Source of the DNA: Astropecten irregularis
Lineage: Eukaryota > Echinodermata > Asteroidea > Paxillosida > Astropectinidae
NCBI GenBank assembly: GCA_963971285.1
Contig: OZ020246.1
Location: 12,693,217 to 12,757,216 of the forward strand
Direction: 5' to 3'
DNA: 64,000 nucleotides
In this document: positions 41,693-63,201 of the stretch, piece after piece
How positions within the stretch are numbered: the stretch's first letter is position 1
Layout: each line of letters begins with the position of its first letter
Notes under the pieces: generated by a model
Seen by the model: only the letters and a program-made list of their open reading frames with translations
Told to the model about the DNA's origin: nothing
The model's database searches: none
Position numbers and translations under genes: made by a program

Positions 41693-41876
41693 TTACAATG
41701 GAGAAAAACGTTGACACGATTCAGGTTCAGCTACCTTCAAATATCAGGATTACCAGCCTGTTCACCTATGATCTGGAGAGGGCGCTAGTTGCTGACAAGC
41801 TTGATATGATCATCCATTCGTTAAAGGATTTGCCATCTGTGTTACATGAGGGAACGTCAATCTGAACCATCTGCAG
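41693..41876 (+). pseudogene. HMBS: HMBS (porphobilinogen deaminase) exon, pseudo-copy 1
   Basis: HMBS joins four porphobilinogens into hydroxymethylbilane in haem synthesis. The exon is preceded by a pyrimidine-rich tract and AG and followed by GTAAGG. It reads SLFTYDLERAL, then LDMIIHSLKDLPSVL, matching the HMBS/HemC core that carries the catalytic aspartate (HSLKDLP; E. coli Asp84). After EGTSI comes TGA (41,863-41,865), and the same frame resumes TIC, the residues expected there in the family, so the TGA replaces a sense codon of a real exon. No other HMBS exons are nearby. The acceptor here has one extra A. A dead, amplified exon is the best reading; the exon identity is strong. Confidence 0.85.
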
Positions 41877-41932
41877 GTAAGGATGTTTCCATATCAACAT
41901 CTGCATGTATGATTTACAGCGGTTGCTAATGG

Positions 41933-42486
41933 GGTTGCCATAGACAGTGTCTGTCTCCCTCTAGTGATCATGATGAGTCAGGTATTGCCACTCAAGTGAG
42001 TGTCTGTCTCCTTCTAGTAATCATCGTGAGTCAGGTATTGCCCACTGATCTATACAAAAGATGTAATCTGACATCGGACTTGCTTGAAATATATATAAAA
42101 TTTCGCATTATCATCACGGGTCATAAAAGTGGATGTTTTCACCAGGTCCGGACATGATAGCCAGCGGGCAGTTTTCAACACTGGTAGCCAGGGGTCCTGT
42201 GTGCGAGTCCCGAAACGGCATAATGTTTTTTTCCGACACCAAAAAATCTAATCTGACATCAGATTGGTTGCTATGTCCGTTTGTTTGTAGGCCTACTTGT
42301 TCTCCGGTGTCATAAGTTTGCCTATCTGAAACCAAAATCTGAATTGGGTCGACCTAAAGCCGCTCCTGATCTATTGAGTTCAATGGCAATGCTGGGACGC
42401 CTGTCTGAAACGGGGGTTATAAATTGAGTGGCAATACCTGACTCATCATGATCACTAGAGGGAGACAGACATTGTCTATGGCAACC
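41933..42486. mobile_element. Foldback-like module with 60-bp inverted ends (copy 1 of 7)
   Basis: Left end GGTTGCCATAGACA, right end TGTCTATGGCAACC; the arms extend about 60 bp and contain one unit of the 53-bp minisatellite in opposite orientations. The interior has TCTGACATCGGACTTGCTTG, CACCAGGTCCGGAC and a tRNA-like stretch (TAGCCAGCGG, then GTGCGAGTCCCG, about 42,157-42,220) resembling decayed A and B boxes. Other copies: 43,529-44,081; 56,840-57,396; 58,846-59,637; 60,345-60,896; 61,703-62,494; 63,202-63,753. Calling it mobile is inference from the ends; all copies here lie in the tandem units. Confidence 0.6.
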
Positions 42487-43040
42487 AAGTGAGTGTCTGT
42501 CTGCCTCTAGTGATCATCATGAGTCAAGTATTGCCACTCAAGTGCGTGTCTGTCTTCTTCTAGTATTAATCATCAAGAGTCAGGTATTGCCAGTCGAGTG
42601 AGTGTCTGTCTCCTTCTAGTAATCATCGTGAGTCAAGTATTGCCACTCGAGTGAGTGTCTGTCTCCTTCTAGTAATCATCGTGAGTCAAGTATTGCCACT
42701 CGAGTGAGTGTCTGTCTGCCTCTAGTGATCATCATGAGTCAAGTATTGCCACTCGAGTGAGTGTCTGTCTCCTTCTAGTAATCATCGTGAGTCAAGTATT
42801 GCCACTCGAGTGAGTGTCTGTCTGCCTCTAGTGATCATCATGAGTCAAGTATTGCCACTCGAGTGAGTGTCTGTCTCCTTCCAGTAATCATCGTGAGTCA
42901 GGTATTGCCACTCGAGTGAGTGTCTGTCTGCCTCTAGTGATCATCATGAGTCAAGTATTGCCACTCAAGTGAGTGTCTGTCTCCTTCTAGTAATCATCGT
43001 GAGTCACGTATTGCCACTCGAGTGAGTGTCTGTCTGCCTC
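42487..43040 (+). repeat. 53-bp minisatellite, about 10 units
   Basis: Unit: CACTCAAGTGAGTGTCTGTC, then TCCTTCTAGTAATCATCGTG, then AGTCAGGTATTGC (53 bp). Each unit contains TGAGTCA. Shorter runs of the same unit: 41,272-41,408; 44,082-44,262; 59,638-59,818; 60,897-61,180; 62,495-62,672. Confidence 0.95.
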
Positions 43041-43288
43041 TAGTGATCATTCATCTCATTTATTTATGTGCACTTTGTAGACTCCCCACTCTTGAAAATA
43101 AAAGACGTGTTAACATGGTTAATTATTGTATTTTCTTATATAAGCATTTTCATGATCATTTCACCAACATAGATGCAAACCCTTACTGTGCTTTACCATC
43201 TGACCCATCCAGTCCTTTTATGGGCCTTCTGCATTGAGAATCTACAATCCATTTTGTTTCATTCATTTTTGTCTTTTTTATTTGACAG

Positions 43289-43472
43289 TTACAATGGAGA
43301 AAAACGTTGACACGATTCAGGTTCAGCTACCTTCAAATATCAGGATAACCAGCCTGTTCACCTATGATCTGGAGAGGGCGCTAGTTGCTGACAAGCTTGA
43401 TATGATCATCCATTCTTTAAAGGATTTGCCATCTGTGTTACATGAGGGAACGTCAATCTGAACCATCTGCAG
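43289..43472 (+). pseudogene. HMBS: HMBS exon, pseudo-copy 2
   Basis: 184 bp with TTGACAG acceptor and GTAAGG donor intact. Same frame as copy 1 (YDLE form) and same TGA, at 43,459-43,461. The upstream intron part lacks the stretch encoding the TGCTCCTGTGCGG segment found in other copies. Confidence 0.85.
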
Positions 43473-43528
43473 GTAAGGATGTTTCCATATCAACATCTGC
43501 ATGTATGATTTACAGCGGTTGCTAATGG

Positions 43529-44081
43529 GGTTGCCATAGACAGTGTCTGTCTCCCTCTAGTGGTCATGATGAGTCAGGTATTGCCACTCAAGTGAGTGTC
43601 TGTCTCCTTCTAGTAATCATCGTGAGTCAGGTATTGCCCACTGATCTATACAAAAGATCTAATCTGACATCGGGCTTGCTTGAAATATATATAAAATTTC
43701 GCATTATCATCACGGGTCAAAAAGTGGATGTTTTCACCAGGTCTGGACCTGATAGCCAGCGGGCAGTTTTCAACACTGGTAGCCAGGGGTCCTGGGTGCG
43801 AGACCTGAAACGGCATTATGTTTTTTTCCGACACCAAAAAATCTAATCTGACATCAGATTGGTTGCTATGTCCGTTTGTTTGTAGGCCTACTTGTTCTCC
43901 AGTGTCATAAGTTTGCCTATCTGAAACCAAAATCTGAATTGGGTCGACCTAAAGTCGCTCCTGATCTATTGAGTTCAATGGCAATGCTGGGACGCCTGTC
44001 TGAAACGGGGGTTATAAATTGAGTGGCAATACCTGACTCATCATGATCACTAGAGGGAGACAGACATTGTCTATGGCAACC
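43529..44081. mobile_element. Foldback-like module, copy 2
   Basis: Same ends and interior order as 41,933-42,486. Confidence 0.6.
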
Positions 44082-44511
44082 AAGTGAGTGTCTGTCTGCC
44101 TCTAGTGATCATCATGAGTCAAGTATTGCCACTCAAGTGAGTGTCTGTCTCCTTCTAGTAATCATCGTGAGTCAGGTATTGCCACTCAAGTGAATGTCTG
44201 TCTCCTTCTAGTAATCATCATGAGTCAGGTATTGCCACTCAAGTGAGTGTCTGTCTTTCTCTAGTGATCATTCATCTCATTTATTTACGGCACTTTATAG
44301 ACTCCCCACTCTTGAAAATAGAAGACGTGTTAACATGGTTAATTATTGTATTTTCTTATATAAGCATTTTCATGATCATTTCACCAACATACATGTAGAT
44401 GCAAACCCTTACTGTTTATATGCTCCTGTGCGGCGGACAAAAATAAATTGAGTGGCAATACCTGACTCATCATGATCACTAGAGGGAGACAGACATTGTC
44501 TATGGCAACCA

Positions 44512-45012
44512 AGTGAGTGTCTGTCTGCCTCTAGTGATCATCATGAGTCAAGTATTGCCACTCAAGTGAGTGTCTGTCTCCTTCTAGTGATCATCGTGAG
44601 TCAGGTATTGCCACTCAAGTGAGTGTCTGTCTCCTTCTAGTAATCATCGTGAGTCAGGTATTGCCACTCAAGTGAGTGTCTGTCTCCTTCTAGTAATCAT
44701 CGTGAGTCAGGTATTGCCACTCAAGTGAATGTCTGACTTTCTCTAGTAATCATCGTGAGTCAAGTATTGCCACTCAAGTGAGTGTCTGTCTCCTTCTAGT
44801 AATCATCGTGAGTCAGGTATTGCCACTCAAGTGAATGTCTGACTTTCTCTAGTAATCATCGTGAGTCAGGTATTGCCACTCAAGTGAGTGTCTGTCTCCT
44901 TCTAGTAATCATCGTGAGTCAGGTATTGCCACTCAAGTGAGTGTCTGTCTCCTTCTAGTAATCATCGTGAGTCAGGTATTGCCACTCAAGTGAATGTCTG
45001 ACTTTCTCTAGT
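44512..45012 (+). repeat. 53-bp minisatellite, about 9 units
   Basis: Same unit as 42,487-43,040, with alternating CTCCTTCTAG and CTTTCTCTAG variants; leads into the third exon unit. Confidence 0.95.
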
Positions 45013-45298
45013 GATCATTCATCTCATTTATTTATGTGCACTTTATAGACTCCCCACTCTTGAAAATAGAAGACCTGTTAACATGGTTAATTATTGTATT
45101 TTCTTATATAAGCATTTTCATAATCATTTCACCAACATAGATGCAAACCCTTACTGTTTATATGCTCCTGTGCGGCGGACAAGGCATGCCGTAGCTGTGC
45201 TATACCATCTGACCCATCCAGTCCTTTTATGGGCCTTCTGCATTGAGAATCTACAATCCATTTTGTTTCATTCATTTTTTTCTTTCTTTATTTGACAG

Positions 45299-45482
45299 TT
45301 TCAATGGAGAAAAACGTTGACACGATTCAGGTTCAGCTACCTTCAAATATCAGGATAACCAGCCTGTTCACCTATGAACTGGAGAGGGCGCTAGTTGCTG
45401 ACAAGCTTGATATGATCATCCATTCGTTAAAGGATTTGCCATCTGTGTTACATGAGGGAACGTCAATCTGAACCATCTGCAG
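45299..45482 (+). pseudogene. HMBS: HMBS exon, pseudo-copy 3
   Basis: 184 bp, acceptor and donor dinucleotides intact, YELE form, same TGA. Only 8 bp of donor-side sequence remain before a rearrangement joins it to the GACCTGATAGCCAGCGGG part of the module. Confidence 0.85.
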
Positions 45483-45884
45483 GTAAGGATGACCTGATAG
45501 CCAGCGGGCAGTTTTTAGCCAGGGGTCCCGGGTGCGAGACCTGAAATGTCATAATTTGTTTTTCCCGACACCAAAAAATCTAATCTGACATCGGACTTGC
45601 TTGAAATATATACAAATTTGGCATTATCATCACGGGTCAAAAAGTTGGAGTTTTCACCAGGTCTGGACCTGATAGCCAACGGGCTGTTTTCACCAGGTCA
45701 TGTATATTTTTATAATTTGCTGGAAGTTATCAGGCTCATAGCTTTTATTGTTGCACTTGGTGCTAAGCCAATTGATCATCACAATAATGAATATCAGTAG
45801 AACTTTGTTTTGACATGTAATGTAGTCCGTTCAGTCCTTACACGTACAACTCCATTGCTTTTTTTTAATACAAACCAGCAACGC

Positions 45885-46215
45885 GCACATGTGGGGGCAT
45901 AGGTGGCAAGTGCGTTTGGCACTCGCCTCTCACCAATGTGGCCCGGTTTCGATCCCGGCTTGGGTCATACCGTCATATGTGAGTAGAGTTGTGCATTGGT
46001 TCTCTCCTATGCTACGAGGGCTTTTCTCCGCGTTCTCCGGTTTTCCTCCCTCCACAAAAATCAAACACTTTCGATCTGAGGCTGTGATCTGTGATCATAT
46101 ATGGGTTGATATGGCTGGCAGCCAATGGCGCCCATGAAAGCCTGCTACTCCATCACGTTGTAGCCGCTTCCTTCGCAATTCAGCACCCCAGCTGCCAGTA
46201 AGGATGATTAGCCCT
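45885..46215 (+). mobile_element. tRNA-derived SINE
   Basis: The head (about 45,888-45,962) has an A-box-like GGTGGCAAGTGCG and a good B box, GGTTTCGATCCC, at tRNA-like spacing. The body contains TTCTCCGCGTTCTCCGG and TTTTCCTCCCTCC, which resembles the conserved central domain shared by many animal SINEs (Nin-DC/Meta-SINE type; from memory). A degraded tail runs to about 46,215. It is just upstream of the first MTF-1-like exon. Confidence 0.8.
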
Positions 46216-46326
46216 CCCAAAATCATCATTATGTAACACTAAACAGTCAGGGCTATCGTTTTTAGATTGAAATGCCTGTACGATCACTTTACAGTTATTA
46301 TTGGTTCATTTCTATTGATTTTACAG

Positions 46327-46442
46327 GAGAGAAGCCATATTTTTGCCAAGAGGATGGATGTGATCGATCATTTAACACACAGTACAGTCTCAAGAGCCAT
46401 AAGAAAGGACATGATAAACAGTCATCAACAGCAACATTGCAG
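46327..46442 (+). CDS. MTF1: MTF-1-like exon a: sixth zinc finger
   Basis: Acceptor TGATTTTACAG, donor CAG/GTATGG. Begins with the last two bases of a Gly codon (the G of a TGEKP linker) and ends in phase 0 after [11 protein letters not shown]. The TGEKP linker implies that further fingers were encoded upstream. Confidence 0.85.
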
Positions 46443-49400
46443 GTATGGTCTTACAATTCATTATGTAGTTATGTACGGTACATGTGATTACACGAGCGCA
46501 CAGTTTTGAATGGCGCCCTCTATTGATTAAATAAAACAAGAAACTGCGGTAGTGTCAGTAGGCCTATATCACTTTGTACATGAACACCGCCAATCATCTT
46601 TTATTGAAATCTGGGAAGCTGGAAAGCTAATCATGAGCAAAAGACCAGTGGGGAAATCCGGGAGATGTTGTCCATGCCAAATATTCTTCTATTAACTCCA
46701 TGTTCCTTTCAGGAATGAATCGCGCACCACACACCAAGCCTGAGTTGTATTGTATTTAGATCGATAAACACCACTGCAATTTCTTGTTTTAATCAATAGA
46801 GGGCGCCATTCAAAACTGTGTGCTTGGATTACTGTTTAGGCTAGAAACTTGGGTAAACATTTCCAAATCATGAAACTTGGTGGAATCAATTTACACTGCG
46901 GAAGACGGACATTGTTCCTGGTTACCACCCTTGACATAGTTTGTAAGTAGTGCAAAAGTGAAATGCTGCTTTAAAATAAGAATGTAGGTTTGCGGTGACA
47001 CCATGTAATCTCTTCTGTGAGAGTGTGTGGTTCTGAGGGGAACCGTTGGTATTATCTCAACATTCCAAACAGTGTGCTCTGTTTGTCCTCAGGACATTGA
47101 CTGGTTGTGTGACTTTGATGATACTGAATATATAAAGCTCCAAGGATGCATTGGAGCAGAAACGGCTGGATTGGGTGGAATCCTACTGAATGAATGGTGA
47201 CTCAGTGTGGGCATTGGAGCATGACAGTAGAGAACTAGGATCATCAAAGTCTAGCAACCAGTCATTCTCCTGAGGACGAACAGAGCACACACTGGTTGGA
47301 ACGTCAAGATAATACCACCATGCATAGCTTCAAGTCTTACTCAGCTTTAAAATATTCACAACTTAAGGTCGTCTTACAGACAAACCCATCTTTATCATGA
47401 TTCCTCACCTATTTCCTGTATAATGTAATGAATTGACATCCATGTTCATGTTTGGTTTGGATAGAGGGATGATTACAGCAGTGAAAGTATCGTAACTTCA
47501 TCTTCAGCTAGTTTGACCTGCACATCAAGCGCAACCTGTACTTGCTCATGTGAATCCAAGAAAACACCCTCATCAACAGAGGTATGCATCTAAGTGTGTA
47601 AATAGTGAATAAAATAGACATGTATGTAGGTGGTGCTTGAATCCTTAACATGCATAATTGTCACTTTATTACATCTTAGTTTAATAGTTGTTAGTTTGTT
47701 ACTACAAAAGTGTATAGTTTTTATAATAGGGGCCACTCAAAATGTTCAATGTTTTGGAATTTCTACTTTTCTTTTTTTAATAATAGGTCGGTGGGTCAAG
47801 GAAATAAATTGAACTAAACTGTTAATCGAAATTTACTTTTTAAATCAAAATCCAGTATTTTCTTTTATTCTGAATAATTGCTTGAAATGCATGTACATGT
47901 ACTGCAGTACACGTGCCATGGCCACACAAGCATTCCAAAAATTCAATATTTGTCAATTTTGTTTCCAAATCAGAGTCATAACTGTGTGTTCTGGGACTAA
48001 AACTTTGCATTGGTTACATCATACCAACTAATGAAGACATTTTCAGGGCACCTGTGCACATTCCAGCAATTACCTCGACATAACGTTGATTAGAGATTTT
48101 TGCATGTATTCAATAATCAAAATGCATGTAGGCTACAATGTACTAGATGAAAAATCAATTATTAAAAAAAAAATAAAAATTTGGAAACAAAGTCAAAATT
48201 TAAAAACATTGAACATTTTGAGTGGCTCCTTAGCTAGTATTAAAGTGCTACCAAAATTGTAACCATTGTTTTGATAGACTAACATGGCTACCCACAATAT
48301 ATTTTTTCCAGAACATTTAAATGAACATTTTAAGATCTTTGCAATGCTTTATCCATGAACCAGGTACCTATTGCAGATGGAATCATGAATGCAACAAGTC
48401 AACATGTCATCAAAGGAGACGATGAATTTGTTCAAGTTGGGGAAGTGGTAGCACCTTCTCAATCAATAATAAGCCAACAAACAACTTCATGTAAGTATGG
48501 ATTGATGTGCATTTGCCTTCAATAACCAACTGATCTACTCAGCCCTATGTCATACCGAGCGGCACAGCACTTTTTAAGTGTCTGTACCTCTTGAATGCGT
48601 GTGTCATTTGCCTGTGTTTTGGGAAGCTTCGTGATCGTAGGTTCAATGGCTTGAATGAAGTCTTCCACCTGGATCTTTTTGGGTGCTCCGGCAAAGTTCA
48701 TATCCATTTCCAGTTCTTCAGTCTGTCTCCTGATGAGGACTAGAGCAGGCTAGTCGAAACGTTGAGACCTTACGAGAAGTGCGAACGAAAATAGAAGTGC
48801 GAAAGTACGAACGATTCTTACATAGCGTTTCCGCAAACCGATCCCCATACTAATTGTCACCATGCAAAGCCTCAAATCTTTCTTGGCACAGCATTGTTCA
48901 ATACATAAACCTGCTTTTTATGATCCTTATGCAGCTGTCAATTGTAAGACGCACTATTAGACCCCTGGGAAAGGGGCGTCATTTACCACACATTCCTGAC
49001 GCAGGGTAAATTGTCATTGACGCATTTGGTCCGTAACAACATTGACGAATGGGTGCGTCAATGTCAGTCATAGACTTATGTGTAAATTGTGCTGCACACA
49101 CAGGGTTGTCTTTGCCAATGGTTTATCCATCACTAGGACAGTAATGGTTCGTCACAATTAAGAAATGGTGCATCACATAACTGACTAAGGGTTCCGTCAT
49201 GGTAGACGAATATCTGTCATTATTAGGACGCTGAGGTCCGTCATGTTATTTGAAAGCGCGGTGCACATTGAACAAGTGACGCACCATTCCCGGGGGTCAT
49301 ATAGTGCGTCTTACAATTGACAGCTACATTACTTTTCACTGACTTGGTTAGCAGCAAATTTCTACGCTAGCAGAGCAAGCAACAATGGGAGACTTTTGAC

Positions 49401-50833
49401 TACCGGTAACCATTGTTAATCTCAAGAGGGTGCGCTTCATCAGTCTTGGGAAAGTGTGTTGATTTTGTTGTCATTGCTTTTGTGCACGAATATTCGTCAT
49501 AAACACAACCGGCGTAAAATAAGTGCATGGAAATGCCTGTTACATACTGTGCAGTGTCCGGTTGTGGTGGCAGGGGAGGACATGATTTCCCCAAGAACAA
49601 GCAAATGCAGAATCTGTGGAGATTGGCAATCAAATGATTAACTCATTAGTTTGATCAATGAGCTTAAGACTTCAGTTTTCACTGATGAAACAATAATTTG
49701 TCTGCATTATTTGTTGTTCTATTTTAGCTGCCCAGAGCCAAAAGCACAACACGGTGGTCAGTGTGTCATCATCCATAGCATCACCGCAGGATCAGCTGGT
49801 CAAAACCTGATCATTACCATCAATCAAGATTCTACTATGCCTACTCAAGTAGTGATAGCACCACACCAGCTACCTCATCAGACATCAAACACTACACAAG
49901 GAACCCCTGGATATCCACTATGTACTATCTCAAATCATCCACCAGCTGAGTCATGCTTGCATCATACACAACCAGTCAAACCACATGTTGACTTAATATC
50001 AAATGGCTCCAATGTAGAGAAAACAATACATGGTACTGTGGCACAAGAAAGCAATGTCAATGTTTCTGCATGTATCCCTGTTGCTCCTCCAGTAGGTCTT
50101 ACCATCTCTCAACCATGTACTCCAGCTATGCCACCTGTTGGATCAACTATTGTCCCTGTACCAGTTGTACTTACTATTGCTCCACCTGATCACACTGTCC
50201 TGCAGTTTTATAGTTCTGGTGTTCATGCACAGACTCAGATTCAAGTTATCACGGATGAACGCAAGGTCATTGTCTGTTTGTCAGCCAGGAAGCAGTTTCC
50301 CATCCACTGTAACCAGTAGACAAGATGTTTTTAAGGCAGAGCAGAGTGCTGAAAATGTTGTCATCAATACGCGTAGTGTGGATGAAAGTTGTCTTACTTC
50401 ACCAAACCGGGATGATGATAAGTCGGCTCTTATGCTAAGCAAACAGTCTAATGAGCAGTGTGTGTCTGCTAATAATCCCGCGATTCAAGCTCCTGAAAGT
50501 CCATCATCTTGGAGCTCTAAATACCCTGAAACTAGTTCAATCAAACATTCATGCTCATGCGATAACCAATTGAAGAATCAACAAAAGCAACGTTCAGATG
50601 ATATGATTGAAAGTTGGTTAAATGATAAGAATAGCAGCATGTCTCAGTTTACAACTCCCATGGAGTCACCAAGCATTCCCTTCAGTACCAAGGAAGGCGA
50701 CAAACAACCCTGTCCACTGTGTAACTGTGTATGTCCATGTGATTGTAAAAAGGCTGAACCGTCTAGAAGTGAATTTCAAGATAGCATGTCTGTTATTTCA
50801 TCATTTAGTTTGGGTGGTTTCTCTGATTTTTGA
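46327..50833 (+). CDS. MTF1: MTF-1-like metal-regulatory transcription factor, C-terminal half (4 exons)
   Basis: MTF-1 is the zinc-sensing nuclear factor that binds metal-response elements and drives metallothionein genes. Exons: 46,327-46,442, 47,465-47,581, 48,364-48,490, 49,728-50,833, all with GT-AG borders and compatible phases (1,466 coding nt, about 488 codons). The first exon encodes one C2H2 finger (C-x4-C-x12-H-x3-H) with [15 protein letters not shown], very close to the last (sixth) MTF-1 finger. The rest is Ser/Thr/Pro/Gln-rich, like the MTF-1 activation region, and the terminal exon has a Cys cluster ([13 protein letters not shown]) where MTF-1 has its metal-response CQCQCAC cluster. 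Fingers 1-5 and the start codon are not in the window. Two frameshifts in the last exon offset each other. It may be a live gene with a huge upstream intron or a truncated copy. Confidence 0.8.
46488..46829. mobile_element. MITE in MTF-1-like intron 1 (CAGTTTTGAATGGCGCC ends)
   Basis: Inverted arms of about 55 bp: CAGTTTTGAATGGCGCCC and CTCTATTGATTAAA on the left, complementary on the right. About 340 bp, no coding capacity. It starts 45 bp after the exon donor. Confidence 0.8.
47048..47317. mobile_element. Foldback element in MTF-1-like intron 1
   Basis: Arms of about 75 bp with indels: GGTATTATCTCAACATTCC, GTGTGCTCTGTTTGTCCTCA and GACTTTGATGA on the left, complementary order on the right. 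Short unique centre. No target duplication seen. Confidence 0.75.
47465..47581 (+). CDS. MTF1: MTF-1-like exon b: Ser/Thr/Cys-rich
   Basis: 117 bp, 39 codons, phase 0 at both ends; acceptor TTTGGATAG, donor GAG/GTATGC. Begins [10 protein letters not shown] and contains CTCSC. Phase agreement with both neighbours and an uninterrupted frame support it; there is no recognisable domain. Confidence 0.75.
47729..48230. mobile_element. 502-bp MITE in MTF-1-like intron 2
   Basis: Termini AGGGGCCACTCAAAATGTTC and, on the right, the complementary GAACATTTTGAGTGGCTCCT; arms of about 30 bp (…TGTTCAATGTTTT). AT-rich interior without an open frame of note. Confidence 0.8.
48364..48490 (+). CDS. MTF1: MTF-1-like exon c
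   Basis: 127 bp; acceptor GAACCAG, strong donor GTAAGTAT. Reads [18 protein letters not shown], then [11 protein letters not shown], and ends with one base of the next codon. Acidic and hydrophobic mix, plausible activation-domain sequence; no defined fold. Confidence 0.75.
48500..48900. other. Intron 3, left part: possible retroelement remnant
   Basis: The minus strand (48,519-48,707) has a 62-residue frame with [20 protein letters not shown], followed on the plus strand by CTCCTGATGAGGACTAGAGC and GTCGAAACGTTGAGA, words often seen at ends of animal retroelements (recalled, not verified). No reverse-transcriptase motif is visible. Confidence 0.3.
48933..49325. mobile_element. 393-bp MITE in MTF-1-like intron 3
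   Basis: Termini AGCTGTCAATTGTAAGACGC and its complement, extending about 40 bp through CACTATTAGACCCC. The interior is studded with GACGCA / TGCGTC and CCGTCAT words in both orientations, suggesting subterminal binding sites. No transposase. Confidence 0.85.
49533..49637 (+). pseudogene. THAP-domain N-terminal fragment (34 codons)
   Basis: A short frame from ATG reads [13 protein letters not shown], then [10 protein letters not shown] and LWRLAIK, then TGA. THAP zinc-binding domains start with an M-P-x-x-C-x-x-x-x-C layout, then a conserved Phe-Pro, then W-x-x-A-I-K/R; all are here in order. The second half, with the later zinc ligands and HF, is missing, so it cannot fold as a complete THAP domain. 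It lies in the last intron of the MTF-1-like gene on the same strand. Possible origins are a THAP gene first exon or a P-element-like transposase. No GT donor is evident at the break. Confidence 0.6.
49728..50833 (+). CDS. MTF1: MTF-1-like terminal exon: activation region and Cys cluster, with two frameshifts
   Basis: Acceptor TTCTATTTTAG. The phase inherited from exon c gives [15 protein letters not shown] and then a stop just after an A-run (49,802-49,805). A second frame carries [17 protein letters not shown] onward and is open to 50,321. The first frame takes over again near the T-run at 50,277-50,279 and continues through the Cys cluster (50,711-50,746) to the stop at 50,831-50,833. One extra A and one fewer T would give one continuous frame. 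Composition is rich in S, T, P, Q and V, like the MTF-1 activation region. Assembly indels or early decay are both possible. Confidence 0.75.
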
Positions 50834-50897
50834 TTGAGACATAAATGGGGAAAAACCAAAGTATGATACTATACCTTTAAGTTTAAACAGTATTATG

Positions 50898-50903
50898 AAT
50901 AAA
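50898..50903 (+). terminator. Polyadenylation signal AATAAA
   Basis: Canonical AATAAA 65 bp after the MTF-1-like stop codon. A remnant of a MITE family 2 right end (ACCAAAGTATGATACTATAC) lies between, at about 50,852-50,880. Confidence 0.6.
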
Positions 50904-51799: not shown

Positions 51800-51804
51800 T
51801 AATA

Positions 51805-53446: not shown

Positions 53447-53805
53447 AGATGGTATCGATTCTGGCGACGGTATCGATTCTATCGGCGGTATCGATTCTAT
53501 CGGCGGTATCGATTCTATCGGCGGTATCGATTCTTTTGGCGGTATCGATTCTTTCGGCGGTATCGATTCTATCGGCGGTATCGATTCTATCGGCGGTATC
53601 GATTCTTTCGGCGGTATCGATTCTTTCGGCGGTATCGATTCTTTCGGCGGTATCGATTCTTTTGGCGGTATCGATTCTTTCGGCGGTATCGATTCTTTCG
53701 GCGGTATCGATTCTTTTGGCGGTATCGATTCTTTTGGCGGTATCGATTCTAGCTATGGTATCGATTTTAGCTATGGTATCGATTTTTAGCTATGGTATCG
53801 ATTTT
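53447..53805 (+). repeat. 18-bp minisatellite, 20 units, each with ATCGAT
   Basis: Unit GGTATCGATTCTWTCGGC. Since 18 is a multiple of three, one frame stays open for 130 codons as a hexapeptide VSILSA/VSILLA repeat. The last units change to TAGCTAT, where a one-base indel ends the regularity. No upstream gene context, and I do not call it a gene. Confidence 0.95.
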
Positions 53806-54317
53806 AGCATTGTACATTGCACATTGATTCTTGATTCTTGAGGCTACATGGGACTACATCAATGCAGGGGGCATATTTGGTGCCGTGTACATGATGTAAG
53901 CCAGTGAATGAGGTAAACAAAAAACCTCTAATTAATGATCATTTTAATGGATTAAAAGAGAAATTAATAATTGAAAGTCACATGTAAAATACTATACAAA
54001 CGTTTGTGCCTATATCGAAGATGACATCATTATGACTTCATCAATAATTGATCCAAGCGAGAGACCTCACGCCCCCACCCCCCATGCACACACCCACACA
54101 TTTCAATATAGTAGGAATCATTTTTTAGAATGAAAGTTTCATTCAACATCACTGTTGATTTTTATGAAAGTTTCCAAAGACATTTAATTTGATTTGAAGA
54201 CCCCAGCTTGTAATAGCTAGCTTGCATGGTTTCATTGGAGAGTTCATTTTAATTGTTTAGGCCAAATTTTATCAATTTTCTTCTTCCCCATCTAAGTATT
54301 TTTTTAATTATTGATGC

Positions 54318-54666: not shown

Positions 54667-55097
54667 AAGTATTCGTATAATTATTGATCCTATCGTTTGT
54701 TTATTTGTGTGTGATTTATTTGTTTTATTTGTTTTATAAGTTGAATTGGCAGCATATTAGAAATAATTGGCACTGCTGATCCTATACTGCTATAATTATA
54801 TTCTGAAGTAAAAACGACCTAAACGGATAGCGAACATCCGACGCATGAGGGCGCTATTGTTGTAAACACACACGCATTCATATGAGATACCATGTGTACA
54901 TCAGCTGCTGCATTGAACGATTTGAGGAGATTTTTGTCTGCTTTCCTGCCCGAGTCCTAAGCAGAAGAGGCATTTTCCAGGTGAGTCTTGGTCTGAGGTT
55001 TACTAGAGATTATCTTAAATACACTTTTAGCTCAAAACGAAGTCTTTTTGTGGCTTTTTTTTACAGCAAATTTTAAATGCAACTTCAACTTGTACAC

Positions 55098-55470
55098 GAA
55101 TTGCACTGACGACCATCATTTGTGCACAACTCTATGGAACCAGCAGAGGGCGTTTTGAGATAAATTGCTGCTGCTGCATTCAAAGTGTATCATTGTAGGT
55201 AAAAAAAATGGCGGAAAGAATTCCACTGACGGCCATGACGGAAACAGGGTTATTTCCTCCAAGAGTTAACTTATTTGATGCAAGTCATGATGAACTTCAA
55301 TCTCTGGATTGAAAACTGGTGTAGCTTATCTAAAAAGTGAGATTTTCAGGTTTTTTGGACCTACAATTATACACTTCGAATGCAGCGGTTGCCATTTTTA
55401 TCAAAACGCCCTCTGTTGGTCCCATATGTTTGTGCACAAGTGATGGCCGTCAGTGGAATTCTTTCCAAAA
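55098..55470. repeat. Inverted duplication inside arm B
   Basis: 55,098-55,200 (GAATTGCACTGACGACCATC, CAGCAGAGGGCGTTTTGA) reappears inverted at about 55,367-55,470. A second inverted pair joins about 55,290-55,345 to 55,585-55,640 (AAAAGTGAG / CTCACTTTTT). Likely a foldback-forming rearrangement. Confidence 0.7.
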
Positions 55471-55552
55471 TGGCATTACCTCAGTTTAGTACACTCAGGT
55501 TAGCTGGTACCGAGACCCAGTTGTATTTAGGTAAGTTAGTTTACTGTAGAAG

Positions 55553-55972
55553 CTGAGTGTACTTAACTGAGGTAACCCCCAAAAAATCTCGTAAAACTCA
55601 CTTTTTAGATATGCTACACCAGTGTTACACAGCTGAGATTGAAGTTTATCATAAATTGTATTCAGTATACTGCTGTGCATTTTCGGAGCTTTTGAAAACA
55701 GGAAAACGCTTTGAAAAAATTAGCGGTTGCCCGAGCTCCGATTTATAAAAATGAATGACAGCGCTGTATTGCGCACGTGTTGATAATGTGCACGATCAAT
55801 GGATGCATAGCGCTGTATGTAGGAGTGTGTATAACATGCTACAACAATCGTTGCGTCAAGGTATACATGAGTTTCTGGGCTCGATCTACGTGCGTGTTTG
55901 GGAATCTTGCGATGATATGGTGCCGGCAACCTTACAGAATATTCAGTCATAATGTCACTTGCTACATTCACA
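55553..55972. other. Unassigned DNA right of arm B
   Basis: Starts with the second arm of an inverted pair (to about 55,640); the rest holds short overlapping open frames without recognisable domains. Confidence 0.45.
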
Positions 55973-56187
55973 ATGGTATGGTGTTCCATTTGTGCCGTCA
56001 ACTGGTCGCATTTGTTTTTTGGGGGTTTTTTGGCGTCGCATTTACAATACAATACAAATTGATACAAGTAATAAACTGAGCACTGGAAACTGCTCATCGG
56101 CAAAAAAAAAATGCGACGCCAAAAAACAAATGTGACGGCAAAAAAATGCGACGCGTTGACGGCACAAATGGAACACCATACCAGAGT
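55973..56187. mobile_element. Foldback with TGGTATGGTGTTCC arms
   Basis: Arms TGGTATGGTGTTCCATTTGT and GCCGTCAAC on the left, complementary on the right (GTTGACGGCACAAATGG). Nested inner arms repeat GCGTCGCATTT / AAATGCGACGC. The right side has GCGACGCC- and GTGACGGC-type words beside A-runs. Confidence 0.75.
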
Positions 56188-56618
56188 GAATGTTGGAAGT
56201 CCCAGAATGACGTCATCATGTTTACAAACTCACTCCTCGCACTTTTCGGATTTCGGGCAAATTGAGGGGAGAATGAAAACTCCTCTAAAGACTAGTGTAT
56301 CCAGTGGAATACTTGTTAAAAATGAACTTCTGTGTATTCCTGAGTCCATATCCTGCCTGAAAAAAACAAAAACACAAAATACCATTCCGACCTTTTGAGT
56401 TTGGCTTTAATTATTGTATTTTCTTATATAATCATTTTCATAATCATTTCACCAACATAGATGCAAACCCTTACTGTTTATATGCTCCTGTGCGGCGGAC
56501 AAGGCATGCCGTAACTGTGCTATACCATCTGACCCATCCAGTCCTTTAATGGGCCTTCTGCATTGAGAATCTACAATCCATTTTGTTTCATTCATTTTCC
56601 TCTTTCTTTATTTGACAG

Positions 56619-56783
56619 TTACAATGGACAAAAACGGTTCAGCTACCTTCAAATATCAGGATAACCAGCCTGTTCACCTATGAACTGGAGAGGGCACTAG
56701 TTGCTGACAAGCTTGATCATCCATTCGTTAAAGGATTTGCCATCTGTGTTACATGAGGGAACGTCAATCTGAACCATCTGCAG
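56619..56783 (+). pseudogene. HMBS: HMBS exon, pseudo-copy 4 (two deletions)
   Basis: 165 bp instead of 184: 14 bp are missing after ATGGACAAAAACG and 5 bp within GCTTGATCATCC. Both shift the frame, so this copy is the most decayed. Acceptor TTGACAG and donor GTAAGT are intact and the shared TGA site is present. Confidence 0.85.
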
Positions 56784-56839
56784 GTAAGTATGTTTCCATA
56801 TCAACATCTGCATGTATGATTTACAGCGGTTGCTAATGG

Positions 56840-57396
56840 GGTTGCCATAGACAGTGTCTGTCTCCCTCTAATGATCATGATGAGTCAGGTATTGCCACTC
56901 AAGTGAGTGTCTGTCTCCTTCTAGTAATCATCGTGAGTCAGGTATTGCCCACTGATCTATACAAAAGATCTAATCTGACATCGGACTACATGTAGCTTGA
57001 AATATATCAAAATTTCGCATTATCATCACGGGTCAAAAAGTGGATGTTTTCACCAGGTCCGGACCTGATAGCCAGGGGGCAGTTTTCAACACTGGTCGCC
57101 AGGGGTCCTGGGTGCGAGACCCGAAACGGCATAATGTTTTTTTCCGACACCAAAAAATTTTATCTGACATCAGATTGGTTGCTATGTCCGTTTGTTTGTA
57201 GGCCTACTTGTTCTCCAGTGTCATAAGTTTACCTATCTGAAACCAAAATCTGAATTGGGTCGACCTAAAGTCGCTCCTGATCTATTGAGGTCAATGGCAA
57301 TGCTGGGACGCCTGTCTGAAACGGGGTTATAAATTGAGTGGCAATACCTGACTCATCATGATCACTTGAGGGAGACAGACATTGTCTATGGCAACC
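56840..57396. mobile_element. Foldback-like module, copy 3
   Basis: Same ends as 41,933-42,486; tRNA-like stretch with GGGTGCGAGACCCG near 57,110. Confidence 0.6.
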
Positions 57397-58318
57397 AAGT
57401 GAGTGTCTGTCTCCCTCTAGTGATCATCATGAGTCAAGTATTGCCACTCAAGTGAGTGTCTGTCTCCTTCTAGTAATCATCGTGAGTCAGGTATTGCCAC
57501 TCAAGTGAGTGTCTGTCTCCTTCTAGTAATCATCGTGAGTCAGGTATTGCCACTCAAGTGAGTGTCTGTCTCCTTCTAGTAATCATCGTGAGTCAGGTAT
57601 TGCCACTCAAGTGAGTGTCTGTCTCCTTCTAGTAATCATCGTGAGTCAGGCATTGCCACTCAAGTGAGTGTCTGTCTCCTTCTAGTAATCATCGTGAGTC
57701 AGGTATTGCCACTCAAGTGAATGTCTGTCTCCTTCTAGTAATCATCGTGAGTCAGGTATTGCCACTCAAGTGAGTGTCTGTCTCCTTCTAGTAATCATCG
57801 TGAGTCAGGTATTGCCACTCAAGTGAGTGTCTGTCTCCTTCTAGTAATCATCGTGAGTCAGGCATTGCCACTCAAGTGAGTGTCTGTCTCCTTCTAGTAA
57901 TCATTGTGAGTCAGGTATTGCCACTCAAGTGAGTGTCTGTCTCCTTCTAGTAATCATCGTGAGTCAGGTATTGCCACTCAAGTGAGTGTCTGTCTCCTTC
58001 TAGTAATCATCGTGAGTCAGGCATTGCCACTCAAGTGAGTGTCTGTCTGCCTCTAGTGATCATCATGAGTCAGGTATTGCCACTCAAGTGAGTGTCTGTC
58101 TCCTTCTAGTAATCATCGTGAGTCAGGTATTGCCACTCAAGTGAGTGTCTGTCTCCTTCTAGTAATCATCGTGAGTCAGGCATTGCCACTCAAGTGAGTG
58201 TCTGTCTCCTTCTAGTAATCATTGTGAGTCAGGTATTGCCACTCAAGTGAGTGTCTGTCTCCTTCTAGTAATCATCGTGAGTCAGGTATTGCCACTCAAG
58301 TGAAAGTCTGTCTTTCTC
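57397..58318 (+). repeat. 53-bp minisatellite, about 17 units (longest run)
   Basis: Very uniform units, each with TGAGTCA. GGCATTGCC variants recur every few units (57,649; 57,861; 58,020; 58,179), pointing to a local higher-order repeat of 3-4 units. Confidence 0.95.
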
Positions 58319-58605
58319 TAGTGATCATTCATCTCATTTTATGTGCACTTTATAGACTCCCCACTCTTGAAAATAGAAGACGTGTTAACATGGTTAATTA
58401 TTGTATCTTCTTATATTAGCATTTTCATAATCATTTCACCATAAAAGATGGAAACCCTTACTGTTTATATGCTCCTGTGCGGCGGACAAGGCATGCCGTA
58501 GCTGTGCTATACCATCTGACCCATCCAGTCCTTTTATGGGCCTTCTGCATTGAGAATCTACAATCCATTTTGTTTCATTCATTTTTGTCTTTCTTTATTT
58601 GACAG

Positions 58606-58789
58606 TTACAATGGACAAAAACGTTGACACGATTCAGGTTCAGCTACCTTCGTATATCAGGATAATCAGCCTGTTCACCTATGAACTGGAGAGGGCGCTA
58701 GTTGCTGACAAGCTTGATATGATCATCCATTCTTTAAAGGATTTGCCATCTGTGTTACATGAGGGAACGTCAATCTGAACCATCTGCAG
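58606..58789 (+). pseudogene. HMBS: HMBS exon, pseudo-copy 5
   Basis: 184 bp, MDKN start and SYIRIISLFTYELERAL variant, intact splice dinucleotides, same TGA. Twin of copy 7. Confidence 0.85.
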
Positions 58790-58845
58790 GTAAGGATGTT
58801 TCCATATCAACAGCTGCATGTATGATTTACAGCGGTTGCTAATGG

Positions 58846-59637
58846 GGTTGCCGTAGACAGTGTCTGTCTCCCTCTAGTGATCATGATGAGTCAGGTATTG
58901 CCACTCAAGTGAGTGTCTGTCTCCTTCTAGTAATCATCGTGAGTCAGGTATTGCCCACTGATCTATACAAAAAATCTAATCTGACATCGGACTCGCTTGA
59001 AATATATCAAAATTTGGCATTATCATCACGGGTCAAAAAGTGGATGTTTTCACCAGGTCCGGACCTGATAGCCATCGGCCATTTTTCACCAGGTCCAGAC
59101 CTGATAGCCAGGGGTCGCGGGTGCAAGACCCGAAACTTCATAATGTTTTTTCCAGACATTAAAAAATCTAATCTGACATCGGACTTGCTTGAAATATATC
59201 AAAATTTGGCATTATCATCACGGGTCAAAAAGTGGATGTTTTCACCAGGTCCGGACCTGATAGCCATCGGCCATTTTTCACCAGGTCCGGACCTGATAGC
59301 CAGGGGTCCCAGGTGCGAGACCCGAAACTTCATAATTTTTTCCAGACATTAAAAAATCTAATCTGACATCGTACTTGCTTGAAATATATCCAAATTTGGC
59401 ATTATCATCACGGGTCAAAAAGTGGATGTTTTCACCAGGTCCGGACCTGATAGCCATCGGCCATTTTTCACCAGGTCCTGACCTGATAGCCAGGGGTCCC
59501 GGGTCCTAAAGTCGCTCCTGATCTATTGAGTTTAATGGCAATGCTGGGACGCCTGTCTGAAACGGGGTTATAAATTGAGTGGCAATACCTGACTCATCAT
59601 GATCACTAGAGGGAGACAGACATTGTCTATGGCAACC
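58846..59637. mobile_element. Foldback-like module, copy 4, with three 190-bp subrepeats
   Basis: Subrepeats start near 58,975, 59,167 and 59,357 (TCTAATCTGACATCG). Each has paired CACCAGGTCCGGACCTGATA words; the first two carry a decayed B-box-like GGTGC(A/G)AGACCCG. The repeated frame (KKWMFSPGPDLIA) is a by-product. Confidence 0.65.
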
Positions 59638-60104
59638 AAGTGAATGTCTGTCTGCCTCTAGTGATCATCATGAGTCAAGTATTGCCACTCAAGTGAGTGT
59701 CTGTCTCCTTCTAGTAATCATCGTGAGTCAGGTATTGCCACTCAAGTGAGTGTCTGTCTCCTTCTAGTCTTCATCGTGAGTCAGGTATTGCCACTCAAGT
59801 GAATGTCTGACTTTCCCTAGTGATTATTCATCTCATTTATTTATGTGCACTTTATAGACTCCCCACTCTTGAAAATAGAAGACGTGTTAACATGGTTAAT
59901 TATTGTATTTTCTTATATAAGCATTTTCATAATAATTTCACCAACATAGATGCAAACCCTTACTGTTTATATGCTCCTGTGCGGCGAACAAGGCATGCCG
60001 TAGCTGTGCTATACCATCTGACCCATCCAGTCCTTTGATGGGCCTTCTGCATTGAGAATCTACAAATTTTGTTTCATTCATTTTCCTCTTTCTTTATTTG
60101 ACAG

Positions 60105-60288
60105 TTACAATGGAGAAAAACGTTGACACAATTCAGGTTCAGCTACCTTCAAATATCAGGATAACCAGCCTGTTCACCTATGAACTGGAGAGGGCACTAG
60201 TTGCTGACAAGCTTGATATGATCATCCATTCTTTAAAGGATTTGCCATCTGTGTTACATGAGGGAACGTCAATCTGAACCATCTGCAG
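60105..60288 (+). pseudogene. HMBS: HMBS exon, pseudo-copy 6
   Basis: 184 bp, MEKN start, YELE form, intact splice dinucleotides, same TGA. Twin of copy 8. Confidence 0.85.
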
Positions 60289-60344
60289 GTAAGGATGTTT
60301 CCATATCAACAGCTGCATGTATGATTTACAGCGGTTGCTAATGG

Positions 60345-60896
60345 GGTTGCCGTAGACAGTGTCTGTCTCCCTCTAGTGATCATGATGAGTCAGGTATTGC
60401 GACTCAAGTGAGTGTCTTTCTCCTTCTAGAAATCATCGTGAGTCAGGTATTGCCCACTGATCTATACAAAAGATCTAATCTGTCATCGGACTTGCTTGAA
60501 ATATATCAAAATTTGGCATTATCATCACGGGTCAAAAAGTGGATGTTTTCACCAGGTCCGGACCTGATAGCCAGCGGGCAGTTTTCAACACTGGTAGCTA
60601 GGGGTCCTGGGTGCGAGACCCGAAACAACATAATGTTTTTTTCCGACACCAAAAAATATAATCTGACATCAGATTGGTTGCTATTTCCGTTTGTTTGTAG
60701 GCCTATTTGTTCTCCATTGTCATAAGTTTACCTATCTGAAACCAAAATCTGAATTGGGTCGACCTAAAGTCGCTCCTGATCTATTGAGTTCAATGGCAAT
60801 GCTGGGACGCCTGTCTGAAACGGGGGTTATAAATTGAGTGTCAATACCTGACTCATCATGATCACTAGAGGGAGACAGACATTGTCTATGGCAACC
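60345..60896. mobile_element. Foldback-like module, copy 5
   Basis: Same ends as copy 1; single subrepeat. Confidence 0.6.
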
Positions 60897-61462
60897 AAGT
60901 GAGTGTCTGTCTGCCTCTAGTGATCATCATGAGTCAAGTATTGCCACTCAAGTGAGTGTCTGTCTCCTTCTAGTAATCATCGTGAGTAGGTATTGCCACT
61001 CAAGTGAGTGTCTGTCTCCTAGTAATCATCATGAGTCAAGTATTGCCACTCAAGTGAGTGTCTGTCTCCTTCTAGTAATCATCGTGAGTCAGGTATTGCC
61101 ACTCGAGTGAGTGTCTGTCTCCTTCTAGTAATCATCGTGAGTCAGGTATTGCCACTCAAGTATAAGTCTGTCTTTCTCTAGTGATCATTCATCTCATTTT
61201 ATGTGCACTTTATAGACTCCCCACTCTTGAAAATAGAAGACGTGTTAACATGGTTAATTATTGTATTTTCTTATATCATTTTCATAATCATTTCACCATA
61301 AAAGATGGAAACCCTTACTGTTTATATGCTCCTGTGCGGCGGACAAGGCTTGCCGTAGCTGTGCTATACCATCTGACCCATCCAGTCCTTTTATGGGCCT
61401 TCTGCATTGAGAATCTACAATCCATTTTGTTTCATTCATTTTTGTCTTTCTTTATTTGACAG

Positions 61463-61646
61463 TTACAATGGACAAAAACGTTGACACGATTCAGGTTCAG
61501 CTACCTTCGTATATCAGGATAATCAGCCTGTTCACCTATGAACTGGAGAGGGCGCTAGTTGCTGACAAGCTTGATATGATCATCCATTCTTTAAAGGATT
61601 TGCCATCTGTGTTACATGAGGGAACGTCAATCTGAACCATCTGCAG
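61463..61646 (+). pseudogene. HMBS: HMBS exon, pseudo-copy 7
   Basis: Same variant set as copy 5, exactly 2,857 bp away; same TGA. Confidence 0.85.
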
Positions 61647-61702
61647 GTAAGGATGTTTCCATATCAACAGCTGCATGTATGATTTACAGCGGTTGCTAAT
61701 GG

Positions 61703-62494
61703 GGTTGCCGTAGACAGTGTCTGTCTCCCTCTAGTGATCATGATGAGTCAGGTATTGCCACTCAAGTGAGTGTCTGTCTCCTTCTAGTAATCATCGTGAG
61801 TCAGGTATTGCCCACTGATCTATACAAAAAATCTAATCTGACATCGGACTCGCTTGAAATTTATCAAAATTTGGCATTATCATCACGGGTCAAAAAGTGG
61901 ATGTTTTCACCAGGTCCGGACCTGATAGCCATCGGCCATTTTTCACCAGGTCCAGACCTGATAGCCAGGGGTCGCGGGTGCGAGACCCAAAACTTCATTA
62001 TGTTTTTTCCAGACATTAAAAAATCTAATCTGACATCGGACTTGCTTGAAATATATCAAAATTTGGCATTATCATCACGGGTCAAAAAGTGGATGTTTTC
62101 ACCAGGTCCGGACCTGATAGCTATCGGCCATTTTTCACCAGGTCTGAGCCTGATAACCAGGGGTCCCAGGTGCGAGACCCGAAACTTCATAATTTTTTCC
62201 AGACATTAAAAAATCTAATCTGACATCGTACTTCCTTGAAATATATCCAAATTTGGCATTATCATCACGGGTCAAAAAGTGGATTTTTTCACCAGGTCCG
62301 GACCTGACAGCCATCGGCCATTTTTCACCAGGTCCTGACCTGATAGCCAGGGGTCCTGGGTCCTAAAGTCGCTCCTGATCTATTGAGTTTAATGGCAATG
62401 CTGGGACGCCTGTCTGAAACGGGGTTATAAATTGAGTGGCAATACCTGACTCATCATGATCACTAGAGGGAGACAGACATTGTCTATGGCAACC
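61703..62494. mobile_element. Foldback-like module, copy 6, three subrepeats
   Basis: Twin of copy 4 at 2,857 bp with a few substitutions, e.g. GGTCTGAGCCTGATAACC in the second subrepeat. Confidence 0.65.
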
Positions 62495-62961
62495 AAGTGA
62501 GTGTCTGTCTGCCTCTAGTGATCATCATGAGTCAAGTATTGCCACTCAAGTGAGTGTCTGTCTCCTTCTAGTAATCATCGTGAGTCAGGTATTGCCACTC
62601 AAGTGAGTGTCTGTCTCCTTCTAGTATTCATCGTGAGTCAGGTATTGCCACTCAAGTGAATGTCTGACTTTCTCTAGTGATTATTCATCTCATTTATTTA
62701 TGTGCACTTTATAGACTCCCCACTCTTGAAAATAGAAGACGTGTTAACATGGTTAATTATTGTATTTTCTTATATAAGCATTTTCATAATAATTTCACCA
62801 ACATAGATGCAAACCCTTACTGTTTATATGCTCCTGTGCGGCGAACAAGGCATGCCGTAGCTGTGCTATACCATCTGACCCATCCAGTCCTTTGATGGGC
62901 CTTCTGCATTGAGAATCTACAAATTTTGTTTCATTCATTTTCCTCTTTCTTTATTTGACAG

Positions 62962-63145
62962 TTACAATGGAGAAAAACGTTGACACAATTCAGGTTCAGC
63001 TACCTTCAAATATCAGGATAAACAGCCTGTTCACCTATGAACTGGAGAGGGCACTAGTTGCTGACAAGCTTGATATGATCATCCATTCTTTAAAGGATTT
63101 GCCATCTGTGTTACATGAGGGAACGTCAATCTGAACCATCTGCAG
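62962..63145 (+). pseudogene. HMBS: HMBS exon, pseudo-copy 8
   Basis: Twin of copy 6 at 2,857 bp, with one Thr-to-Asn change before SLFT; same TGA. Confidence 0.85.
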
Positions 63146-63201
63146 GTAAGGATGTTTCCATATCAACAGCTGCATGTATGATTTACAGCGGTTGCTAATG
63201 G

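Follow-up and report, generated by a model that had tools for sequence, protein, structure and literature searches.

Copies of an HMBS exon in Astropecten irregularis as probable fossils of a gene segment turned satellite DNA

We find that a 64,000-nucleotide stretch of Astropecten irregularis DNA (the window) holds eight copies of one exon of the HMBS gene. The mitochondrial genetic code, too, points to an echinoderm. We read these copies, and their many relatives elsewhere in the genome, as relics of a piece of HMBS that was duplicated and has turned into compound satellite DNA, and put the probability of this reading, in which the exons of the arrays would give no HMBS product, at roughly three in four. 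It draws on the homology of the copies to HMBS, their linkage to a minisatellite, the history of one stop codon, the structure of the arrays and variation that looks neutral.

Exon copies and the repeated unit

All eight copies lie on the + strand, in the two clusters described by an earlier note on this DNA: 41693..41876, 43289..43472, 45299..45482, 56619..56783, 58606..58789, 60105..60288, 61463..61646 and 62962..63145 (copies 1 to 8). The observation that their length is mostly kept stands for seven of them, at 184 nt each, but copy 4 has only 165 nt, with 19 nt missing and the frame broken upstream. Every copy (8/8) has AG on its 5' side and GT on its 3' side, a TGA directly after EGTSI and TIC in the frame past it, just as had been noticed from the letters; the acceptor of copy 1 reads GACAAG in place of GACAG. 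Read through the TGA, the exon matches Pfam PF01379 (E 4e-10), and its top Protein Data Bank matches are porphobilinogen deaminases (E 7e-9) in an alignment that spans the TGA. The protein search thus bears out the assignment to HMBS, and a chance resemblance is excluded.

What is repeated is more than the exon: the unit measures about 1.1-2 kb. The earlier description of an internal exon as payload can thus be refined, since flanks, minisatellite and spacer belong to the unit too. Its order is minisatellite, 5' flank, exon, short minisatellite, spacer and inverted minisatellite piece, and the complete units in the window are bracketed by inverted minisatellite pieces. Around copy 2, the 53-bp minisatellite array (unit 2, 42477..43050, +) leads into the 5' flank (43041..43288, +), whose final 54 bp correspond to HMBS intron sequence upstream of the acceptor, and the exon is followed by a 63-bp 3' flank (43473..43535, +) with homology to the HMBS intron past the donor; the same 3' flank follows six further window copies and is absent after copy 3. 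Next comes the spacer (43629..44010, +), and an inverted minisatellite piece (44019..44066, -) closes this unit. Other 53-bp minisatellite arrays lie at 41266-41412, 44072-44271, 44501-45018, 57387-58328, 59628-59812, 60887-61188, 62485-62684 and 63744-64000; other spacer segments at 40289-40495, 42033-42415, 45491-45695, 56940-57326, 58946-59567, 60445-60825, 61803-62424 and 63302-63682; and other inverted pieces at 40504-40546, 42424-42471, 44448-44495, 57334-57381, 59575-59622, 60834-60881, 62432-62479 and 63691-63738. Unit spacing is regular within runs (about 1.1-2 kb), and from 58606 to 64000 (+) the units form a dimeric higher-order stretch of pairs (1499+1358 = 2857 bp).

A second repeat adjoins the first cluster: a 34-kb array of 195-bp repeats (6345..40287, +; TRF period 195, 95-96% matches) ends directly at the truncated first exon-unit spacer. 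The two repeats are not companions everywhere, since contig C10 carries its exon copies at 0.6-2.4 Mb and, well away from them, the 195-bp satellite at 10.8-13.2 Mb. At 46327-46440 the window also has a C2H2 zinc-finger exon, read in the direction of the HMBS-exon copies, that may belong to MTF1; Protein Data Bank and Pfam searches with it gave no match. The window has no Rfam RNA, and a Pfam scan of six window stretches returned as its sole match a sub-threshold PF21275 (1613-2047; E 0.0053, 17 bits vs a cut-off of 27).

The parent gene and the history of the stop codon

An apparently intact HMBS gene, of which nine exon pieces were recognised by eye, lies on C25 and has TCA (Ser) in the amplified exon. 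Because of this TCA, we rule out that the TGA is a genuine alternative stop of HMBS, an outcome that the earlier note had named as fatal to its account. Gene and copies have intron flanks in common on both sides, 54 bp upstream and 62 bp downstream, and because these flanks are homologous to HMBS introns a processed (retro)pseudogene is ruled out as well. An HMBS intron also holds the 53-bp minisatellite, in 19.5 copies.

Joined into one protein query, four other HMBS exons give just 7 matches and are thus not amplified. Of these matches, C25 accounts for four; the others are a single exon on C1, a fragment of 25 aa on C9 and a hit on a contig that looks bacterial. The lone second HMBS exon, at C1:828640, is 75% identical and has intron flanks. 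None of three other HMBS exons used as probes finds a match at eight loci, each in the surroundings of an exon or minisatellite copy, and we see no intermediate with the two intervening HMBS exons still between exon and minisatellite.

The stop codon itself has several states. Besides the gene, TCA is found at six exact places (C1, C18 and four on C10), and TAA at two exact places at the end of C9. We built a tree of 75 copies (70 full-flank copies out of 97 distinct ones plus five added by hand, mostly chosen by exon similarity), rooted on the C25 gene, in which 65 copies have TGA, 7 including the gene TCA, 2 TAA and 1 GGA. Among its 55 unique sequences, the 7 TCA tips split from the 48 others with 97% ultrafast bootstrap support, a value taken from the unrooted tree. 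All stop-bearing copies fall in one clade; therefore, the nonsense change is older than the large amplification, and it is for this amplification that the earlier proposal of a change before multiplication holds. Two of the TCA copies, at C10:599 kb and C10:821 kb, carry frameshifts. Reading by eye, we also noticed a short inserted element common to the C1, C18 and C10 copies.

Genome-wide distribution and sequence variation

Across the genome, 418 places match a pattern over the exon end with up to 3 mismatches, and the reversed-pattern control gives 0. The earlier count of at least eight is accurate for the window and a large underestimate for the genome. Exon copies are carried by C9, C12, C15, C19, C10, C1 and C18, with isolated ones on C15 (13.89, 14.05 and 15.80 Mb), C12 (6.10 and 6.33 Mb) and C19; the genome searches cover the first ~100 places, with the best candidates scored, and per-chromosome totals are lower bounds. 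The 53-bp minisatellite has 2720 places with up to 2 mismatches and, among the matches listed, is seen only on contigs bearing the exon. Exact minisatellite matches, taken in contig order, number none on C2-C8 and six on C1 (at 0.93 and 1.23 Mb) among those listed, and the HMBS-type version has 110 places, found on C25, C10 and C9 only among the matches listed. On first look the spacer gives 886 candidates vs 427 for the exon (the best 40 spacer candidates scored are all on C9 or C12); since spacer candidates outnumber those of the exon, part of the unit may exist without it.

Copies within the arrays resemble each other as members of a homogenised satellite do. Exon divergence is 1.3% within C12 and 2.2% within the interior of C9, and the C9 interior differs by 7.7% from the C9 end but by just 2.3% from C12. 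One exon variant has 184 exact places; those listed are all on C12, in zones of opposite orientation, and in general each array zone keeps to one orientation, which changes from zone to zone. This chromosome-specific variant (among the matches listed), the 2857-bp dimer and the within-chromosome likeness are signs of homogenisation, and the many-copy head-to-tail arrays, with a parent gene identifiable in the same genome, are what is expected of a satellite derived from a gene fragment. Some zones lie mid-contig, which hints at a heterochromatic or pericentromeric site, and some at contig ends, as does the array at C9 0-40 kb.

How does this distribution compare with capture of the exon and its flanks by a mobile element, as the earlier note had suggested? 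Such an element, Helitron-like or with terminal inverted repeats and a minisatellite core, would have multiplied the exon first and left tandem arrays later. The inverted minisatellite pieces that surround the exon might derive from the ends of a transposon, three places each on C15 and C12 have one larger composite in common (at least 95% over the 561 bp searched, the C15 copies aligning to or near the ends of the sequence compared), C1:932.8 kb has the minisatellite without the exon, and the insertion common to the C1, C18 and C10 copies indicates that mobile DNA was active there. However, the six window stretches scanned contain no transposase-like domain (a non-autonomous copy need not carry one), and the expected dispersal over most chromosomes is not seen: C2-C8 have no exact minisatellite among the matches listed, and the best composite matches are on C15, C12 and, at one place, C17 only, among the best 40 scored of 430 candidates. 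Furthermore, HMBS itself contains the minisatellite, and capture is therefore not required to explain why it is linked to the exon. With the exon travelling together with intron flank and HMBS-intron minisatellite, on few contigs among the matches listed, the suggestion of capture is not supported and we consider it unlikely.

Sequence variation bears on a different question: whether the arrays are or were expressed, as an alternatively spliced or regulatory exon that supplies a TGA 'poison exon' or small RNAs. Splice sites are well kept, with AG and GT in 49/49 and 23/23 copies of two samples and the donor CAG|GTAAG in 48/49, and the window copies run in the same sense as the zinc-finger exon. 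In the 49 copies, which were selected largely by exon similarity, the exon has fewer variable sites than the flanks (28/184 vs 59/186, p 2e-4; with a minor count of at least 2, 19/184 vs 35/186, p 0.027). Yet coding changes in these copies (synonymous 9, nonsynonymous 21, stop 1; expected fractions 0.26/0.71/0.03) look neutral, and the difference is gone in a census of two C9 stretches (23 complete copies of 27 seen, the first stretch with three gaps of <700 bp), where sites with a minor count of at least 2 number 14/184 in the exon vs 16/186 in the flanks (p 0.85). The census value for all variable sites (18/184 vs 57/186, p 6e-7) arises because window copy 3, which has no 3' flank, is misaligned there; without this copy the count is 17/184 vs 28/186 (p 0.11), with diversities of 2.45% (exon), 3.83% (5' flank) and 2.17% (3' flank). 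We therefore claim no constraint on the exon. Intact splice sites are what recent homogenisation should leave behind and are no evidence of use, and orientation that is uniform within zones and varies between them is what tandem growth gives, which leaves expression very improbable. The lone exon on C1 might point to an ancient tandem duplication within another, functional HMBS-like gene, an origin that we regard as barely credible given the unmatched exon probes, the frameshifts in the two C10 copies and the TGA in the arrays.

Origin of the arrays and known systems

In the satellite reading that we prefer, a piece of HMBS (intron, one internal exon, intron) would have been duplicated as DNA onto a different chromosome, intronic flanks included, and the exon would have become joined to the minisatellite still present in another HMBS intron, with loss of the two intervening exons. 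Copies with TCA would persist from this stage on C10, C1 and C18. One descendant would then have gained the TGA (TAA now stands there in two related copies and GGA in one), and the TGA-bearing unit would have expanded into head-to-tail arrays through unequal exchange or some comparable mechanism. Larger segmental copying may have carried the unit among satellite-rich, possibly pericentromeric zones of C9, C12, C15 and C19, where it is now mixed with a 195-bp satellite and has a chromosome-specific variant and higher-order periods. Any 'function' of the unit would be that of satellite DNA. More tentatively, and with doubt prevailing, this one genome may preserve the record of a satellite's birth, from working gene, founder intron minisatellite and ancestral-codon copies through a basal contig-end array to later multi-chromosome arrays that possibly serve as pericentromeric DNA.

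None of the papers listed in literature searches deals, by its title or abstract opening, with an HMBS-derived or exon-derived satellite, and we compare the arrays with better-known systems. An unprocessed HMBS pseudogene would likewise retain intron sequence from copying at the DNA level and carry a nonsense change, but the arrays are no single relic: they have hundreds of copies and a higher-order organisation. Helitron and Pack-MULE elements capture gene fragments, and here too the moved and multiplied sequence is an exon between stretches of intron, copied as DNA; unlike those cases, there is no transposase in the six window stretches and no genome-wide dispersal among the matches listed, and the donor gene itself contains the linked minisatellite. 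The human D4Z4/DUX4 macrosatellite has kilobase head-to-tail units that keep an intronless full open reading frame. The HMBS arrays resemble it in their kilobase units with gene-derived sequence, head-to-tail arrangement and chromosome-specific variants, and differ in holding a broken internal exon with intron flanks. In Drosophila, an intron-bearing copy of a housekeeping gene gave rise to Stellate and Suppressor of Stellate, hundreds of tandem repeats near heterochromatin. Here, similarly, the copy of a conserved housekeeping gene, introns included, became a many-copy tandem repeat; while Stellate repeats a whole gene copy with a known germline effect, the HMBS arrays repeat one internal exon plus minisatellite, with a stop and no known effect. 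To our knowledge, the parent of most satellites is not traceable. This genome appears to combine the parent gene, the minisatellite of its intron, intermediates and the final arrays, and one nonsense codon shows which events came first. Whether a satellite starts in the unstable intron of a gene or in a transposon thus becomes directly testable across related species.

The exon copies and the unit that carries them

The window holds eight copies of a 184-nt internal HMBS exon, all on the + strand and in two clusters (copies 1-3, 41693-45482; copies 4-8, 56619-63145), exactly where the earlier note had placed them. When its TGA is read through, the translated exon matches Pfam family PF01379 (E 4e-10) and, among solved structures, porphobilinogen deaminases (E 7e-9) in an alignment spanning the stop, so that the protein search does lead to porphobilinogen deaminase/HMBS. 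The splice dinucleotides AG and GT, the TGA and the TIC beyond it are kept in 8/8 copies, as had been claimed. Copy 4 is the one in which the length is not kept: it is 19 nt short, with a frameshift.

The exon is indeed repeated, but it is only one part of what is amplified. A full unit opens with a 53-bp minisatellite array, followed by a 5' flank of ~250-290 bp, the exon, a 3' flank of 63 bp and ~2 further copies of the minisatellite; next comes a spacer, ~380 or 620 bp long, and a single minisatellite piece in inverted orientation closes the unit. Copies 3 and 4 lie in incomplete units. Units are spaced 1.36 to 2.0 kb apart within the clusters, and cluster 2 has a 2857-bp dimer period. The leftmost unit is truncated and begins at 40289, directly abutting a 195-bp satellite whose array extends over 34 kb (6345-40287, 95-96% matches).

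Between the two clusters lies a C2H2 zinc-finger exon (46327-46440, + strand), which we take to resemble MTF1; the exon arrays may sit within introns of a host gene. At 53451-53808 an 18-bp sequence (GGTATCGATTCTTTCGGC) is repeated in tandem ~17 times with 96% matches, and a related array of 3.8 copies comes next.

Distribution across the assembly

The amplification is much larger than eight copies. Searching the 475.7-Mb assembly (168 contigs) with a 31-nt pattern of exon end plus donor at <=3 mismatches gives 418 places (207 forward, 211 reverse), and the reversed pattern gives 0 places in the whole assembly. Among the places listed, matches fall on contigs C9, C12, C15, C19, C10, C1 and C18: those on C9 at 0-40 kb (minus) and 11.89-12.76 Mb (plus), and those on C12 at 3.93-4.14 Mb (plus), from ~4.16 to 6.0 Mb (minus) and, a few, at 6.1-6.3 Mb (plus). 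One exon variant occurs exactly at 184 places, on C12 for all those listed.

One motif of the 195-bp repeat is matched exactly at 601 places, with none on C1-C8 among the matches listed in contig order. Places listed are C9 11.86-12.79 of 28.8 Mb, C10 10.8-13.2 of 28.1 Mb, C12 4.16, 6.1, 6.3 and 20.9 of 22.7 Mb, C14 4.93 Mb and C15 10.27 of 21.7 Mb, and these mid-contig runs hint that the 195-bp zones may be pericentromeric. At C10 13.19-13.22 Mb (sampled at 13200000-13202600) there is a repeat of period ~1716 bp with only weak 195-like pieces (74-80%), in which the exon probe finds no match.

By eye, the 3' intron flank of the exon copies on C1 (stretch L062), C18 (L063) and C10 (L064) contains a short insertion with inverted termini (TGTGTCCCAATTCTCTGGCTGC...; at ~5058-5190 in L062), likely a MITE, of which no counterpart was noticed in the C25 gene or in array units.

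The parent gene and the history of the stop codon

One HMBS gene lies on C25, where nine exon pieces, recognised by eye, are open from first Met to final stop. The TGA is not a genuine stop of this gene, as the earlier note had considered it might be: the C25 exon has TCA (Ser). A joint protein query with four other HMBS exons gives 7 matches, four of them on C25 and the rest on C139 (a bacterial-looking contig), as a lone exon at C1:828640 (75%) and as a 25-aa piece on C9; among the exons tested, then, only the exon of the arrays is amplified, the first two and the last HMBS exons having been covered solely by Pfam profile search. The lone C1 exon (828640-828828, L072 1501-1689) has intron flanks, 75% protein identity and 80% DNA identity over 295 bp, and is in our reading a further remnant left by HMBS duplication.

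Rooted on the C25 gene, a tree of 75 copies with 55 unique sequences among them supports the proposal that nonsense came first and amplification later. It separates 45 TGA, 2 TAA and 1 GGA tips from 7 TCA tips at 97% ultrafast bootstrap; C9-end copies (0-40 kb) branch earliest, and the C9-interior (11.89-12.76 Mb), C12, C15 and C19 copies are nested. Exact searches for TCA and TAA versions find eight places, with TCA on C1, C18 and, four times, C10, and TAA twice in the C9-end array. Two TCA copies are already frameshifted, so some copies broke without the TGA. The GGA copy (C12:3934186), which reads through, is a chance stop loss within the array. Across 49 array copies, gathered mostly by exon similarity, 9 synonymous, 21 nonsynonymous and 1 stop variant fit the neutral expectation. 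Given the stop, the frameshifts and this neutral variation, the arrays are predicted to yield no HMBS product.

Genes like hemC (417 aa) and cox1 (552 aa) run through single stop-free frames on C139 and C131, which are probably bacterial contigs. On the mitochondrial contig C168, COX1 reads AAA where Asn is conserved, AGA where Ser is and ATA where Ile is, in keeping with the echinoderm mitochondrial code; the tRNA order ahead of cox1 resembles the sea-star inversion. A cox1 stretch with 7 TGA at C25:9951047-9952018 is probably a nuclear copy of mitochondrial DNA.

Origin and spread of the unit

Downstream of the exon in the C25 gene, at ~1.2 kb and past two further exons, another intron holds 19.5 copies of a 53-bp tandem repeat, ~77-89% like the array minisatellite among the aligned pieces listed. 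A degenerate 35-place pattern of the minisatellite matches 2720 places; exact matches, among those listed by contig, are six on C1, 0 on C2-C8 and the rest on C9, and for the HMBS-type version the count is 110, with the listed places on C25, C10 and C9. Going by these contig lists, the minisatellite keeps company with the exon; the one departure noted is at C1:932.8 kb, where a minisatellite array has no exon. The simplest reading is that exon and minisatellite both derive from the HMBS gene; alternatively, the minisatellite may be a mobile repeat that inserted into HMBS.

Unequal exchange and conversion leave copies in tandem order and homogenised, with a chromosome-specific variant and higher-order periods, as here; the arrays would have grown and homogenised in this way. 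Around the C15 copies there is a larger composite, with a single 195-like segment and a 21-bp repeat, that, among the best 40 of 430 candidates, which were scored, occurs again on C12 and once on C17. Because, among those scored, it recurs there and not across the genome, transfer among C9, C12, C15 and C19 would have been by segmental copying. All three isolated C15 copies (L069, L076, L077) have a 21-bp minisatellite (GGCAATGACCAGAGGCACCAA) ~1 kb past the unit.

That a mobile element took up the exon, as the earlier note had suggested, is not supported and is the less likely reading; the composite, confined to C15, C12 and C17 among the candidates scored, argues against it. A retrocopy origin is countered by DNA homology between gene and unit in both intron flanks, over 54 bp on the upstream and 62 bp on the downstream side. 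Against a satellite reading stand the minisatellite pieces in inverted orientation, which may be remains of old transposon ends, the absence, among copies examined, of an intermediate retaining both lost HMBS exons, the larger number of first-look candidates for the spacer than for the exon (886 vs 427) and, on C10, a separation of ~8 Mb or more between exon copies and 195-bp repeats. On sequence grounds we nevertheless conclude that the unit is a gene-derived compound satellite, of a known kind in an unusually traceable form.
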